From NCBI RefSeq assembly GCF_018139545.1, contig NZ_JAGSPJ010000002.1, positions 434,001 to 498,000 of the forward strand: 64,000 nucleotides of DNA, written 5' to 3'. Shown piece after piece: positions 41,688 through 48,758 of this stretch. The stretch is from Affinundibacterium fentianense (GTDB lineage: Bacteria > Pseudomonadota > Gammaproteobacteria > Burkholderiales > Burkholderiaceae_D). How positions within the stretch are numbered: the stretch's first letter is position 1; every line of letters begins with the position of its first letter. Below the pieces are notes generated by a model. That model had not been told where the DNA came from. It did no database searches and worked only from the letters and a program-made list of their open reading frames with translations. Made by a program: the position numbers and the translations under genes.

Positions 41688-43982
41688 TTATCGCTTCCAC
41701 CAACGCGGCAATAATGCTTGAATTTGGTCTTGTTGAAATCGATCGTCAATTAAGTAAATCACACCGCGATCTGTGTTGGTCCGAATCACGCGCCCCGCAG
41801 CTTGTACCACTTTTTGCAATCCAGGATACAAGTAGGTGTAATCATATCCAAACCCAAATAGTTGATACATTCTTTGCTTGATTTGTTCGTTGATAGGATT
41901 GATTTGCGGCAGTCCTAGCGTTGCTATAAAGGCGCCTATCAAACGCGTACCAGGCAAATCAATTCCTTCGCCAAAAGCGCCACCCAACACCGCAAATCCT
42001 ACGCCTTGACTGTCCTCAGTGAAATTGGCAATAAACCGATTCTTCGAAGCTTCGTCCATCTTTCTAGTCTGCACCCAAGTGCTGATGTGTGGAAAACGCT
42101 GCGTGAACAAGCTCGCGACTTGATCCATGTATTCAAAACTACTGAAGAAAGCAAGATAAGCACCTGGCGTTTGATCGAATTGGTTTGCCATCAGATCCGT
42201 GATCGGCGTCAGAGATTGATGCCGATCTGCATAACGGGTGGATACTGTTTCAACGACATGGACCGCTAACTGTTCAGGATCAAATGGGGATTCGACATCA
42301 ACCCATGCGGTTTTCTCTGGCATGCCGAGGAGATCACTATAATAATTCCACGGCGTCAATGTCGCAGAAAACAAAGCACTTGTGTGACTTGCTTTAAATC
42401 GTGCTTGTAAAAACGGTGCAGGCACAATATTTCGGATACAGAGAATAGATCCATTTTGCTTCATCGACACGTCGAATATCGAATGCTCTCCAAAACATTC
42501 ACTTAGTCGAATAAAGATCAAAGCATTGAAATAGAACTCTTGCAAACCGGAATTATTCGCCGAGGGATGGTCGACAAAATAGCTACCAATTTCGGCACAA
42601 AGACTTATCAATGTTTTAGTCAATTTATCGGGAAGTTGTGCGTGAACTTGATACGAATCGATACCCTTGCTTTGTATTAGATCTGACTTCTCAAGCATTC
42701 GCCACTGTCGCCGTACTTTATCGCACGCCTTTTTTAGTTCGGGTGGCGCTTGTCTTTGCATCTCCTTAAAACGTGCAGAATGCAATTCTATTGTGTACAT
42801 CTCACGCGCACGCGCCACCATATTGTGCGCCTCATCAATTAGGACGCTGATCTTCCAGTTATTATTCAGTGCCAAACCGTACAACATCGCATTTAAATCA
42901 AAATAATAATTATAGTCACCGACAACGATGTCACTCCATTTGGCCATTTCGATACTCAAATAATACGGACAAATTTGATGAGATAAGGCAACCTCTCGCA
43001 ACTGTGCCTGATCAAGGATCGCAATCCCAGCGGCAGCCGCGCGCGCCTCGGGTAGGCGATCATAAAACCTTTTTGCTAAAGGGCATGCTTCGCCATGGCA
43101 GGCGTTTTCTGGAAATTCACATGCATTCGCTTTCGCGACTAACTCCAGTGCTCTTAATGATGACGGCGGTAGTTTCTCCTGCATGGTGGCGATCGCATTC
43201 AACGCTACTTTCCGCCCAGAAGTTTTGGCGGTCAAAAAAAAGAGCTTATCAAGTTGGTGTTCCGCGATCGCTTTGAGCATAGGAAAAAGGCTGGCGATAG
43301 TTTTGCCAATTCCTGTTGGTGCCTGTGCTAATAAACAGCATGCACGATTGCTTGCTTTGAACATGGCTTCGGCTAGTTCGCGCTGACCAGCTCTAAAACT
43401 AGGATGAGGAAACGGCATCACACGTAAAGCTTGGTCGCGCTGTCGACGATGCGTCGATTCGTGTCTAGCCCATGCCAAAAAACGCCTGCAAGTTTGCTCG
43501 AAAAAATGAGCCAATGTGGCGATATCGAAAGTCTCAGTGAGTGGGATTTCGGTCAGCCTATCGATATCGTAATAGATCAACGCCAGACTCAATTCTGGTA
43601 GTGCGTGCTGTTGACACAATAAATATCCGTATATTTTTGCTTGCGCCCAATGAAGCTGATGATGATTCTCGGGAATCGCATGAAAGTCACCACGATAAGT
43701 TTTGATTTCCTCCAGTTGAACTCGATCAGGGTCAAACCCATCCGCACGGCCTTTAATTACTAATTCCTCATAGCGTCCTTCTAGTCGAATTTCTCGTTGG
43801 TAGTTAGGCTTTCTGCGCGCAGCAACTTGTTGATGTCCTTCTATTCCCTCTAGTCCCGATGGTGAAGGTGTAAAGCGGAAATCCAAATCTCCTTGCTTTG
43901 CTGTGAACTCGACCAAGCTACGCACCGCGACCACATAGGAACTCGAATTCACAAACTCACCTCGCACCATTCGAGATAGCAA
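41688..43982 (-). CDS. Cas4-like nuclease fused to XPD/DinG-type DNA helicase
   Basis: A 764-residue protein. Residues about 20-165 hold a PD-(D/E)XK-type core: D81 in KGRADGF and E92-I-K94 in LEEIKTYRG. The rest is a superfamily 2 helicase of the Rad3/XPD/DinG group: Walker A with K227 in PTGIGKT, an FeS-cluster-like set of Cys residues (CEFPENACHGEAC and a later Cys), the DEAH box D383-E-A-H in LIDEAHNM, and C-terminal motifs GGAFGEGIDLP and QAAGRVIR. It overlaps the end of the upstream nuclease gene by 34 bp (an ATG at 43970 would shorten the overlap), so the two are translationally coupled. It should unwind damaged DNA with 5'-3' polarity. Confidence 0.9.
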   Translation of the reverse strand: MLSRMVRGEFVNSSSYVVAVRSLVEFTAKQGDLDFRFTPSPSGLEGIEGHQQVAARRKPNYQREIRLEGRYEELVIKGRADGFDPDRVQLEEIKTYRGDFHAIPENHHQLHWAQAKIYGYLLCQQHALPELSLALIYYDIDRLTEIPLTETFDIATLAHFFEQTCRRFLAWARHESTHRRQRDQALRVMPFPHPSFRAGQRELAEAMFKASNRACCLLAQAPTGIGKTIASLFPMLKAIAEHQLDKLFFLTAKTSGRKVALNAIATMQEKLPPSSLRALELVAKANACEFPENACHGEACPLAKRFYDRLPEARAAAAGIAILDQAQLREVALSHQICPYYLSIEMAKWSDIVVGDYNYYFDLNAMLYGLALNNNWKISVLIDEAHNMVARAREMYTIELHSARFKEMQRQAPPELKKACDKVRRQWRMLEKSDLIQSKGIDSYQVHAQLPDKLTKTLISLCAEIGSYFVDHPSANNSGLQEFYFNALIFIRLSECFGEHSIFDVSMKQNGSILCIRNIVPAPFLQARFKASHTSALFSATLTPWNYYSDLLGMPEKTAWVDVESPFDPEQLAVHVVETVSTRYADRHQSLTPITDLMANQFDQTPGAYLAFFSSFEYMDQVASLFTQRFPHISTWVQTRKMDEASKNRFIANFTEDSQGVGFAVLGGAFGEGIDLPGTRLIGAFIATLGLPQINPINEQIKQRMYQLFGFGYDYTYLYPGLQKVVQAAGRVIRTNTDRGVIYLIDDRFQQDQIQALLPRWWKR

Positions 43983-45598
43983 ACCGCGATCGGCATTTGA
44001 TGTGTAAGGCAGTATTCCATCATCCTTTTCTGATTATCTTGCAAGCGATCACCTGGCCCCTTTACTTCAATCATGTTGTAGCGCTTTTCTTGAGGCCAAA
44101 ACTGAATCAAATCAGGGAAACCATTTCGATTCAATTTCACGTCAGACAAAATTCGCGTAAACCACAGTTTGAGATGTGATGCAGGAATACAGGTTAAAGC
44201 AAGATCAATTAACGTATGGTCTAGCAGGCTCCAAAATACAAATGGAGACTGCATGCCTTGTTTCTCAACATAGGTTTGTAAAATCGTCGTCGCGTATTCG
44301 CCAGTCTCTAGCTGATTGAAACATTGTTCGAAAATATCTTGGCGCCTAGCATAAAAATCCACACTTGTTAGATCAACTGGGCCTCGATGAAAGGGATGAA
44401 AAAAAGCACCAGAAACAGGTTTGAAAATCGCTTTCCAACACAATAATCCGAACAATGAATTAATGAGAGAATTCTCAACATAAAACACCGGGGCATCATC
44501 TCGATGGAGAAAATCTCTGACCACATTTTCCACGGAATAGGCTTCACCTGGATAGGGCAATTGCAGATCCATTCTTTCCACACTAGATGGGTTCGCTACT
44601 CCAACTTGCTTATGTCCGAGCCTACGTTGCAAGCGTGGCGCACTACGCTGTAATTGCTGCAGCTCTGCTTCATTTTCCGGTGCAGTCAAAGCTTCATTGA
44701 GTAAATCTAAAGCTTGCAAACTCTGTCCATTTTTCTCGAATGTGCGGATCAGGCGTGCACGCACGCCTGGGTAAAACGTGCGTTGATAAATGTGGATTGC
44801 CAAATCCCAATCCTTGCACTTTTCCGCTGCCTGTCCAAGCTGAAACATGAATTTATGTCGGCGCCGATCTATCCACTTATTCTGAATATGAAGACTGAGC
44901 GCATGAGAACAGGCAATCGAAATTTGCGCATCCTGTTCAAACAAATCCCGATATTGTTGCAAGCGCAAATAGTCATCGATGTCACCCCTCGTCTGAAAGC
45001 CGCGTGACTCCAAAGAAATCTCGACCGATTCATAGCGATAAATACCTAAGTCTGACAAAACAAATTCCGACCAGTCTTGATGACAATTTCCAAAGAAAAT
45101 CAAACGCAAGCGATCACATAGCGCTTGATTCGTAATCTGAACAAGGGTTTCTTGCGAACTGGAGTGCCAACAAGAATAGCGCTTTGCTGGGCCCACACGA
45201 TCGCGTAGGTAGCATAATTGTTCGGCTTTTTTCGATTGCTTGATTGGTGCGGTCAGATCGAATATCGAAGTGATTTCCGGCTTCGACAAGACCTCAAACA
45301 ACTGATCAATCGAAAGCATGGGATCAGACTCGACCCAACCAGCTGCGATCAGTGGAGCAATCGCCATTTGCGGGTCACCAATTTCTGCATAGTTCAATTT
45401 CGTGAGGCGAAAAAATTCTCCCTTGCGCATCACCATTCGAACGAACAAAGCTTGCGCGTTACTTGGCAAACTTTGAAAAGACGCGATAAATTCACGCTCG
45501 TCCGCAGTCAATAAATCGTTATAACGCGTAGTCAGCCAATCGAGAACCAACTGAAAATTTTCGAGATAGTACAACGGGTTGTCGAGAATGGGTTTCAT
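43949..45598 (-). CDS. FAN1-like VRR-NUC domain nuclease
   Basis: A 549-residue protein of the FAN1 type. The C-terminal VRR-NUC domain has the catalytic triad D496 (FPDLIQF), E511 and K513 (MIEVKGPGDR), as in the PD-(D/E)XK fold. The N-terminal half matches FAN1-like proteins (ALFVRMVMRKGEFFRLTKLNY), with a helical middle like a TPR/SAP region. Bacterial and human FAN1 cut branched DNA and help repair interstrand cross-links. The start is the first ATG; no strong ribosome site is seen. It is the first gene of the operon and the helicase gene overlaps its 3' end. A LexA-type dyad lies 72-97 bp upstream. Confidence 0.88.
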   Translation of the reverse strand: MKPILDNPLYYLENFQLVLDWLTTRYNDLLTADEREFIASFQSLPSNAQALFVRMVMRKGEFFRLTKLNYAEIGDPQMAIAPLIAAGWVESDPMLSIDQLFEVLSKPEITSIFDLTAPIKQSKKAEQLCYLRDRVGPAKRYSCWHSSSQETLVQITNQALCDRLRLIFFGNCHQDWSEFVLSDLGIYRYESVEISLESRGFQTRGDIDDYLRLQQYRDLFEQDAQISIACSHALSLHIQNKWIDRRRHKFMFQLGQAAEKCKDWDLAIHIYQRTFYPGVRARLIRTFEKNGQSLQALDLLNEALTAPENEAELQQLQRSAPRLQRRLGHKQVGVANPSSVERMDLQLPYPGEAYSVENVVRDFLHRDDAPVFYVENSLINSLFGLLCWKAIFKPVSGAFFHPFHRGPVDLTSVDFYARRQDIFEQCFNQLETGEYATTILQTYVEKQGMQSPFVFWSLLDHTLIDLALTCIPASHLKLWFTRILSDVKLNRNGFPDLIQFWPQEKRYNMIEVKGPGDRLQDNQKRMMEYCLTHQMPIAVCYLEWCEVSL

Positions 45599-46301
45599 GA
45601 GAAAAAATTGCTGCGGCGACTGCGAGATTCACGACATTTGAAAGTATTGATTGATTATTGCCTGACATATTACACTGATTAAATATACAGTGTAAATGTC
45701 GTTTCAGCCTGCGTCGAAAAATCTCTCGTTCGAACAATGCAAACACCAATTCTTGGCCCGCACTATCTCTTGGCATTCTCTTATTTTGAGCGGTGACACT
45801 CGACGATCTACGCATTGGAAATCGATTCATTTGTAGAACAAGTAACCTCAGCGTAGTCATGGTCCCTGCCACCCACTTGCCTTTTGCATTTTTAATTTTA
45901 TATTTACATTAGTTAATGTTGACACACTCAGCACTTGAAAGTGCTTAATTGATTGTTGACGGCGTCTATCAGATACACTCCACGGTCGACCGACTACGAC
46001 GCTACCATCCAATCAAATCAGCATTGATATCTGCCGCAACGGAACCTTTCCCTTTTTATAGAAATAGAAGAGACATCCTCGCAAAACTTCATCCTACTTT
46101 GCGTCTCAGCGCACGCCAATTCACGCATTTAGGAAAGGAAAAGATAAAATCGTGCCCATTAACCACGACAGGTTCGCGCTTCCTTGGAGACACTCAAATA
46201 GTGCGCTATGATGTTTCTTAGTATTCAGTCTCTAGACATCGGATCGCTGGTCACAAGTGATGACCATCTCGGTTGGTTTTTTGTGATTCACGGATAAAAA
46301 T
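45599..46301. other. Divergent intergenic region (703 bp) with regulatory dyads
   Basis: No gene is supported here. An open frame of 90 codons at 45949-46221 has no known relatives and no ribosome site. The region carries the predicted SOS box and promoter of the FAN1-like operon at its left end, and a 16-base dyad, AGCACTTGAAAGTGCT, at 45930-45945. The promoter of the GGDEF/EAL gene should also be here. Confidence 0.6.
45670..45695 (-). promoter_or_regulatory. LexA-like SOS box over the FAN1-like operon promoter
   Basis: The sequence TTACACTG-ATTAAATATA-CAGTGTAA has an 8-base perfect dyad and contains the LexA core CTG-N10-CAG with an all-A/T spacer, the hallmark of gamma- and beta-proteobacterial SOS boxes. 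On the minus strand TTTACA and TAATAT can serve as -35 and -10 elements with the box between them, so LexA binding would block the promoter. The VRR-NUC start is 72 bp away. Confidence 0.72.
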
Positions 46302-48758
46302 ATGGTGCGCATTCGCAAACTGCACACACGGATCATCTTCGCATTTTCTGTCTTGCTTTCGATGGTGCTGATCGTCGAGCTAGCGGTGGTGAATAGCGTC
46401 GTCTCACAAAGTGCAAATGAGGCTATTGAGCGCAACTTGCTGGCTGGCGAACGCTTGTTCAATTCGATCCGAGAAGACAATATCAAACGACTTTCACAGT
46501 CTGCAGGGATCTTGACATCCGATTTTGCTTTTATTAAAGCGACTGCAACCGGCGATCACAACACCATAGTCTCTGTATTACTCAATCATGGTGGTCGCAT
46601 CAACGCCGATATGGCAATGCTCGTCGCGCCCGATAATCGCGTTATCGCTGACACCCTAAGAAAAAGTGTCAACGATCAAGCATTTCCGTTTCCAGAGTTA
46701 ATCAAACGCGCCGAACTGAAAGGACAAACCACTTCCATCGTGACCTTAGATGGCAAGCTATATCAACTGATCGTGGTACCCGTTATGGCACCGCTACCCG
46801 TCGCTTGGCTGGCGCTGGGATTTGTGATCGATGACAAATTCGCGAGAAACTTGAAAGGCGTTACTGGCCTTGATGTATCGTTTCTGACGCCGATCACTGG
46901 TTCAGATCGCCTTAACGTTTTAGCGACAACATTAAACGCCGACCGCGCTGCGGATTTATCCAGCGATGTCAACAAAGTGTCAGAAACCGTTGGAGCGACG
47001 ACCAAGGTTTTAAAGCTCAGTAGCGAAGAATACCTAGCCCGCATCGATCACTTAAAAATCGATGATGGTACAGAAGCGATCACAGTATTGCAGCAGTCCC
47101 TCGATATCGCATTGGCACCATTATTCCACTTGCGCTGGATACTGACAGGTTTAGGTTTTTTCGCTTTAATAGCGACGCTCGTCGCAGGCTATCAAATTGC
47201 GCGTAACATTTCCAAACCTTTGGTGGACCTTAGCCAAGCCGCGCAAGACATTGAAGCGGGTCACTACTATACGCAAACTACCGTGATTGCGCGTGATGAC
47301 GAAGTCGGTCAACTTGCTACTGCCTTTCAAAATATGTCAAAAGGAATTGCAAGCCGCGAAGATAAAATTAGTGAACTTGCTTACCGGGATCGTCTCACTG
47401 GCTTGGCTAACCGCACTTTGTTTAGCATTTCCATCAATGACAGAATCAACAAAATAACATCACTGGGAAACGATAAAGCGAGCGCTAATAGCTCTGACTT
47501 TCCATTCGCGATCTTGCTGATCGATATCGATCGATTCAAAGAAGTGAACGATATTTTAGGTCATCATATTGGCGACCTACTCTTACAGGAAATCGCCCAA
47601 AGACTTCAGGTAGTAGTGGCGCAAAGTGATGCGATGGTGGCGAGACTCGGGGGCGATGAATTTGGCATATTAACAAAGGCTGTCGATCAAACTGTTTCAA
47701 TGGCACTCTCCCAAGCGATCTTAGCTGCCTTGGATAAACCTATCTTATTGGAAGGCCATCAACTAATTGCAAGTGGGAGTATCGGGATCGTTCATTTTCC
47801 AACTGATGGCAATGACATCAATGCCTTACTTCGTCACGCTGAGTTGGCAATGTACACTGCGAAACGTAACAACAGCGGCAGCGCTAGATATGACACCAGT
47901 CTTGAGAGTGCGAGCCAGCAGAATCTGTCGCTGATGGCAGAACTTAAACAAGCGATAGAGCACAATGAACTGCAACTCTACTATCAGCCCAAAGTCGATC
48001 TTCACAGCAACACGATTAGTGAAGTCGAAGCATTAATACGCTGGATTCATCCTAAACGCGGTGTGATTCCACCTGATCAATTTATTCCTTTTGCTGAGAG
48101 TACAGGATTTATCGCGGCAATTACTGAATGGGTAATCGCTCGAGCACTTGAACAGCGAGCTGTTTGGCAAACGCAAGGATTTCCCTTATCGATTTCGGTG
48201 AATATTTCTGCACGTGACTTACTGAACGCCAAACTACCAGGAAATTTTGCACAGTTGATGGAAACACACAACGCCAGCACCGACTGGCTGAGTTTGGAGA
48301 TTACCGAGAGTGCGATCATGACAGATCCAGAAGCAGCGATGCAGGTTCTCAATCAATTAAGAGAAAATGGTTTAGCCATGTCTATTGATGATTTTGGGAC
48401 GGGATATTCGTCCTTAGCTTACTTAAAAAAATTACCTGTGACCGAATTGAAAATTGATAAATCTTTCATCACAGAGATGGAAAATAATCCTGATGATGCG
48501 ATCATCGTTCGTTCAACAATCGATCTCGGACACAACATGGGATTGCGTGTGATAGCAGAAGGCGTAGAAAACCAAGCAACTTGGGATGCTCTTGTGGCGA
48601 TGGGTTGCGATTCTATCCAAGGTTATTTTGTGAGTCGCCCTCTCGCAGCTGAAAAACTGATGACTTGGTTACAGCACTCGCAATGGAAATTTAAAGAAAA
48701 ACCACAATCATATCGACTTACAGGCAAAGAGAATGTCATCACTTCAGCATCCACTTAA
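46302..48758 (+). CDS. Membrane sensor GGDEF-EAL protein (c-di-GMP metabolism)
   Basis: An 818-residue inner-membrane protein that should make or break cyclic di-GMP. Membrane helices at about 10-32 and 272-296 enclose a periplasmic Cache-like sensor domain; a HAMP linker follows (NISKPLVDLSQAAQDIEAG), then a GGDEF domain with intact G450-GDEF-F454, and an EAL domain with E576-A-L578, plus DDFGTGYSS. Both catalytic motifs look intact, so its net activity cannot be told. Its stop overlaps the next gene's start by 26 bp, and a cupredoxin gene follows, so the three form an operon. Confidence 0.93.
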   Translation: MVRIRKLHTRIIFAFSVLLSMVLIVELAVVNSVVSQSANEAIERNLLAGERLFNSIREDNIKRLSQSAGILTSDFAFIKATATGDHNTIVSVLLNHGGRINADMAMLVAPDNRVIADTLRKSVNDQAFPFPELIKRAELKGQTTSIVTLDGKLYQLIVVPVMAPLPVAWLALGFVIDDKFARNLKGVTGLDVSFLTPITGSDRLNVLATTLNADRAADLSSDVNKVSETVGATTKVLKLSSEEYLARIDHLKIDDGTEAITVLQQSLDIALAPLFHLRWILTGLGFFALIATLVAGYQIARNISKPLVDLSQAAQDIEAGHYYTQTTVIARDDEVGQLATAFQNMSKGIASREDKISELAYRDRLTGLANRTLFSISINDRINKITSLGNDKASANSSDFPFAILLIDIDRFKEVNDILGHHIGDLLLQEIAQRLQVVVAQSDAMVARLGGDEFGILTKAVDQTVSMALSQAILAALDKPILLEGHQLIASGSIGIVHFPTDGNDINALLRHAELAMYTAKRNNSGSARYDTSLESASQQNLSLMAELKQAIEHNELQLYYQPKVDLHSNTISEVEALIRWIHPKRGVIPPDQFIPFAESTGFIAAITEWVIARALEQRAVWQTQGFPLSISVNISARDLLNAKLPGNFAQLMETHNASTDWLSLEITESAIMTDPEAAMQVLNQLRENGLAMSIDDFGTGYSSLAYLKKLPVTELKIDKSFITEMENNPDDAIIVRSTIDLGHNMGLRVIAEGVENQATWDALVAMGCDSIQGYFVSRPLAAEKLMTWLQHSQWKFKEKPQSYRLTGKENVITSAST

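Follow-up and report, generated by a model that had tools for sequence, protein, structure and literature searches.

A predicted LexA operator in front of a FAN1–EndoDinG operon in Affinundibacterium fentianense and its relatives

Introduction

The structure and chemistry of the FAN1 nuclease have been solved; of when and why bacteria make it, to our knowledge, little is known. In the 64,000-nucleotide stretch of the Affinundibacterium fentianense genome analysed here (the window), the gene for a FAN1-type nuclease and a linked helicase gene lie behind a palindrome that resembles the SOS box bound by LexA. A first-pass annotation had taken this palindrome for a LexA box and the two genes for a repair operon induced by DNA damage. 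Is the palindrome a LexA operator, and would FAN1 then belong to the SOS response? On the strength of sequence comparison we propose that the box in front of the FAN1–EndoDinG operon is very probably a LexA operator, and that the operon is predicted to be damage-inducible.

Results

The first gene of the operon (43949..45598, minus strand) encodes a protein of 549 amino acids in which FAN1_HTH, FANC_SAP and VRR_NUC are all found above the Pfam cut-offs, and which aligns with PaFAN1 of Pseudomonas aeruginosa (PA1865, PDB 4R89) over 542 residues. The metal ligands and catalytic residues of PaFAN1, given as D507, E522 and K524 in the accessible part of the source (PMC9635880), correspond at an alignment offset of 11 to D496, E511 and K513 of the window protein, which are invariant in 13 sequences. 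Among the best 80 of 582 loci, the relatives belong to Undibacterium and other Oxalobacteraceae, and the nearest named protein is that of U. seohonense, with 70% identity. The gene is patchily distributed, with matches in 49 of 116 genomes of a family sample and 18 of 43 of a genus sample, the source genome being counted in both. Existing knowledge of PaFAN1 and of human FAN1 suggests that the window protein may act in the repair of DNA cross-links.

The second gene (41688..43952, minus strand) would encode an EndoDinG-type helicase of 754 amino acids. Its mechanical open reading frame begins earlier, at a TTG at 43982; the start is probably the GTG at 43952, which is preceded by GAGGTGAG and overlaps the FAN1 stop codon in the sequence GTGA, so that the two genes share four bases if this start is used. 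A domain search placed an XPD/DinG-type helicase directly after the FAN1 domains, and together with the overlap this bears out the two-gene arrangement described at first pass. The helicase gene follows FAN1 at 96 of 100 loci (80 named ones, which are the best 80 of 582, and a selection of 20 from other groups); of the four without it, three are of a fusion type with almost no DNA past the gene, and the fourth (L216) had 1458 bases there.

Residues H40, E54, D71, E82 and K84, and likewise the four cysteines C278, C285, C290 and C328, are present in 79 of 79 aligned helicases, drawn from 78 of the 80 named loci (again the best 80 of 582) and the window. By our own assignment, the first five would be the PD-(D/E)XK residues (H, E, D, E, K) of EndoDinG, a subgroup described in the accessible text of PMC11981726, with which the window helicase shares N-terminal PD-(D/E)XK-type residues, four Fe–S cysteines and an XPD-like helicase; that paper mentions neither FAN1 nor VRR. 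A structural model of moderate confidence (pLDDT 76.6, pTM 0.65) found its best match in the DinG protein of Finegoldia magna (9kqh; 757 alignment columns, TM about 0.7), followed by XPD. The helicase also matched typeIV_DinG in a defence library, a hit that was set aside as probably reflecting the shared helicase fold. E. coli DinG and YoaA are described as DinG-like helicases under LexA control in the part of PMC11981726 available to us. The window helicase is DinG-like as well, yet it falls far under the NCBIfam cut-offs for both DinG and YoaA. We know of no N-terminal nuclease in either of the two E. coli proteins.

The palindrome upstream of FAN1 occupies 45670..45695 and consists of a perfect 8-base dyad, with TTACACTG at 45670–45677 and CAGTGTAA at 45688–45695, around the A/T-only spacer ATTAAATATA. 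Nested within the dyad is an exact CTG-N10-CAG core, the predicted LexA box, of 16 bases (45675..45690, minus strand; CTGTATATTTAATCAG on the operon strand), which is separated by 76 bases from the FAN1 ATG. In all of this, core, spacer, dyad and coordinates, our reading of the sequence agrees with the first-pass annotation. The bare CTG-N10-CAG motif is frequent, occurring 18 times in the window where shuffling predicts 11.06 (as many turned up in 4 of 100 shuffled sequences), and the stricter pattern CTGT-N8-ACAG does not match at this site, because one half-site is TCAG rather than ACAG. The core by itself is therefore no proof, and matches to the bare motif were dropped as evidence. Their frequency also lends something to the view that the site is a chance A/T-rich palindrome within a promoter, bound by no regulator. 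A divergent open reading frame begins at 46302; it is unlikely to be served by the box, at a distance of about 600 bases.

We compared the site with the SOS sites of its own genome. This genome (4.23 Mb) holds one LexA match, over the TIGR00498 cut-off and carrying AAG, GLSM and TVKR, which we take to be the motifs with roles in self-cleavage, and the lexA gene is preceded by two tandem boxes, CTGTATATATAAGCAG and CTGTATTTTTATACAG. A matrix was built from six sites, two at lexA and one each at recA, recN, ruvA and imuA, with the FAN1 site left out. Scoring against a LexA matrix had been suggested as a check at first pass, and with these six sites it came out in favour of the box: the 20-mer upstream of FAN1 reached 19.43 bits, the highest score in the window and well above the runner-up at 14.48 bits, and in a Markov sequence simulated to the genome's 4.23 Mb no site reached that value. 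Left out in turn, the six known sites scored from 10.26 to 24.6 bits, a range that includes the FAN1 site, and the recA site, which has the TCAG end in common with it, scored 19.63 bits when left out. The FAN1 box thus has the same form, and falls in the same score range, as the boxes of the SOS regulon of Proteobacteria, represented here by lexA, recA, recN, ruvA and imuA. The runner-up, a second LexA-like site, lies within the helicase gene at 43321–43340.

Across the genome, the pattern CTGTAWWWWWWNNCAG gave 10 matches at 9 places, compared with 4 for the reversed control, and two of the 9 places (L038, L040) were without an evident target. Taken together, the pattern searches of this genome led to hits beside recA, recN, ruvA and imuA, and also beside the genes for an integron integrase and for a cytosine methylase that carries a MerR-type domain. 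The LexA-type box of the integrase, TACTGTACAAATATACAGTA, is situated at the gene start (L003, G000:C52:264022-264041), and another, TACTGTATTTTTATTCAGTA, precedes the gene for the protein with a MerR-type HTH and a C-5 cytosine methylase (L005/L044, G000:C62:55320-55339), near which a second methylase-like reading frame was recognised by eye.

Both promoters that can be predicted at the locus overlap the LexA-type box. A −10-like hexamer, TACACT, lies over the left arm (45689..45694, minus strand), at 17 bases from a weak and tentative −35-like hexamer, TCGACG, which agrees at 4 of 6 positions (45712..45717, minus strand). The first-pass annotation had instead proposed TTTACA (45696–45691) and TAATAT (45672–45667), spaced by 18 bases on the same strand (45667..45696). 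These hexamers do exist; their placement as the promoter is doubtful, since relatives favour TACACT as the −10. Of 75 distinct named Oxalobacteraceae sequences, from among the best 80 of 582 loci, 73 have TANACT in the −10-like place over the box's left arm, paired with −35 hexamers that are weak, and by this comparison the −10 is probably TACACT rather than TAATAT. No −10 of the TANACT type was seen in the Pseudomonadaceae-type loci compared. With either placement, LexA would cover the promoter.

In relatives, upstream regions from −350 to +60 around the match start were scored against TACTGTATATATATACAGTA, which we take to be the LexA-box consensus. One set comprised the named loci (the best 80 of 582), of which 79 remained after removal of L132, which has no upstream DNA. 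The other came from the family and genus samples, in which 66 genomes had a match and 63, the source genome included, could be scored; G091 (partial match), G101 (129 bases upstream) and G138 (no upstream DNA) were left out. The two sets overlap and their counts are not additive. Among the named Oxalobacteraceae upstreams, within the best 80 of 582, 76 of 79 scored at least 14/20 and 54 at least 16, against 0.75 and 0.0 loci expected from 200 permuted palindromes, and inside the same genes 0 of 79 reached 13 with the same consensus; 43 distinct boxes were found in this set. In the family and genus samples, 48 of the 63 scorable upstreams reached at least 14/20 (47 of 62 without the source genome). 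Because the sequences are related, box counts are not independent events.

Some relatives lack the box. U. seohonense, the nearest relative among the best 80 of 582 named loci, is without a box (11/20), and G130, whose gene was read as that of U. seohonense, has none in 1200 bases. Fifteen scorable genomes fall below 14; in six of them a box of 16–18/20 lies further upstream, where 0.01 was expected at 16 or more; nine of the 63, G130 among them, have no box of at least 14 even in 1200 bases. The gap in U. seohonense, like the frequency of the bare core, speaks for a chance palindrome, but the matrix score and the recurrence in relatives, measured against controls, argue the other way, and we regard this explanation as scarcely credible.

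The conserved positions bear on a different alternative: some other regulator, such as a repressor of the TetR type, would recognise TTACACTG-N10-CAGTGTAA as its operator, and the likeness of the dyad to a LexA box would be secondary. With its perfect 8-base arms the dyad is longer than the LexA core, which speaks for this view. However, 68 distinct sites from named relatives (best 80 of 582), all selected for a score of at least 14, keep the LexA core, with ACTGT and ACAG invariant, and strongly conserve the TA just to its left, whilst the right arm past CAGT is not conserved. What is conserved within the dyad is ACTGT and ACAG, not the whole of its 8-base arms, a point on which our reading departs from the first-pass annotation. 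The sites of FAN1–exonuclease fusions and of Pseudomonadaceae-type loci, described below, likewise have the LexA form and not the longer dyad. We consider control by another regulator to be very improbable, and return to the LexA reading.

At some loci another reading frame lies between the LexA box and FAN1. The box of G146 precedes an SRAP-domain gene (L047 3141-3845, minus strand), presumably of the HMCES/YedK type, whose stop codon shares one base with the ATG of FAN1, and gene order suggests a three-gene operon; the core, CTGATTAAATATACAG, equals that of the window in an orientation opposite to the operon. Four genomes of genus g15 (L035, L055, L058, L076) have similar reading frames of 73–103 amino acids in this position, two of which gave no match in a Pfam search, and G114 has one of 65 amino acids. 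In Sapientia aquatica (L007/L080) the box is found at −238 and a second, CTGTATAAAATCACAG, is closer to FAN1.

More distant loci were taken from three listings, the best 30 of 98, 115 and 118 genomes, ranked by protein likeness and not by box; from the best 30 of 98, 29 were scored together, and the remaining locus (L203, family f172) stood at 13/20. Among the matches listed, all 67 loci of family f146, which appears to be Pseudomonadaceae-type, reached at least 13 and 45 reached at least 14, where permuted palindromes gave expectations of 3.27 and 0.62. Family f207 had 3 of 5 at 13 or more, and f157, apparently Halomonas-like, had 10 loci of which 6 scored at least 13 and one at least 14, again among the matches listed. 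A class-wide sample yielded a FAN1 match in 17 of 370 genomes, including the source genome. Five of the 16 other loci reach 14 and 11 score 13 or less, two of the latter having little true upstream DNA (L169, with 177 bases, and L175, which begins inside the protein). Family f129 supplies three of the five; here FAN1 is fused to an RNase_T-type exonuclease, as judged from the domains of one protein, and 14 of 14 upstreams examined (L276–L289) scored at least 15, against 0.01 expected. Several right halves of the f129 boxes read ATAG. A search of related genomes for such a box before VRR-NUC genes had been named at first pass as a further check. It was clearly positive in Oxalobacteraceae, in Pseudomonadaceae-type loci and in the FAN1–exonuclease fusions; in family f186 it was found in 0 of 5 FAN1 upstreams among the matches listed.

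For the P. aeruginosa genes there are published expression data. In the accessible text of a 2026 paper (PMC12796719), PA1865, cited there as the unhooking nuclease, and PA1866 are among 18 UV-C-induced genes without known control by a LexA-like repressor; for PA1865 the paper further reports induction by ciprofloxacin and repression by peroxide. A relative (G995) has a FAN1 that is 93% identical to PaFAN1, with CTGTATGCATGAACAG lying over its start codon; on our reading of the 4R89 chain numbering, the ATG within CTGTATGCATGAACAG is residue 1. The box of this relative thus covers the start codon, in contrast to that of the window, which stands off from the ATG. Behind FAN1 in G995 comes an EndoDinG homologue that shares 53% identity with the window helicase over 493 columns, and from this gene order PA1866 is likely to be the helicase. 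The G995 genome contains 8 matches to the pattern CTGTATRNATNNNCAG, against 0 for the reversed control, and one match adjoins grpE, beside which we would expect recN.

The responses of PA1865, including the decrease with peroxide, would also fit an arrangement in which LexA binds but represses weakly, or acts jointly with another damage sensor, leaving the operon only mildly SOS-induced. The poorer boxes of the Halomonas-like family point in the same direction. In the window, however, the score of the site is close to that of the recA site in the same genome, and we consider weak or shared repression unlikely, though less so than the two alternatives above.

Discussion

By comparison, the reading of the box as a LexA operator is well supported: the assignment made at first pass has gained the matrix score, the recurrence in relatives and a single LexA gene with two boxes of its own. 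We infer that LexA binds the box in this organism, that the operon is induced by damage and that its two products act jointly in cross-link repair. In an undamaged cell, LexA would sit on the box and cover the promoter, keeping expression of the FAN1–EndoDinG operon low. RecA filaments formed on damaged DNA would bring about self-cleavage of LexA, releasing the operon so that both proteins are made together, and the GTGA overlap probably couples the translation of FAN1 and the helicase. FAN1 would then cleave DNA at 5′ flaps and release interstrand cross-links by unhooking, and the XPD-like helicase/nuclease may open or trim DNA alongside it.

In a literature search conducted mostly outside subscription journals, no bacterial FAN1 was named as a LexA target in the entries and passages covered, and the term LexA is absent from PMC5343134. 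The FAN1–EndoDinG operon appears to be a new predicted addition to the SOS regulon, one that recurs among the genomes compared, and bacterial FAN1 is, judging from the sequences compared, probably switched on by DNA damage. On balance we lean towards a wider reading, in which LexA control is widespread for bacterial FAN1 and has been kept or gained several times, with FAN1–EndoDinG, with the FAN1–exonuclease fusions and with SRAP–FAN1–EndoDinG, in which these genes form an SOS-induced module for cross-link repair, and in which LexA lies behind the UV induction of PA1865–PA1866. A LexA box offers a simple cause for that induction, which its authors, in the part of the paper available, could not place (PMC12796719). 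If the wider reading is true, human FAN1, an XPD/FANCJ-like helicase and HMCES would all have counterparts in the module, and the recurring LexA box would put FAN1 and its helicase partner into the SOS response of many bacteria.
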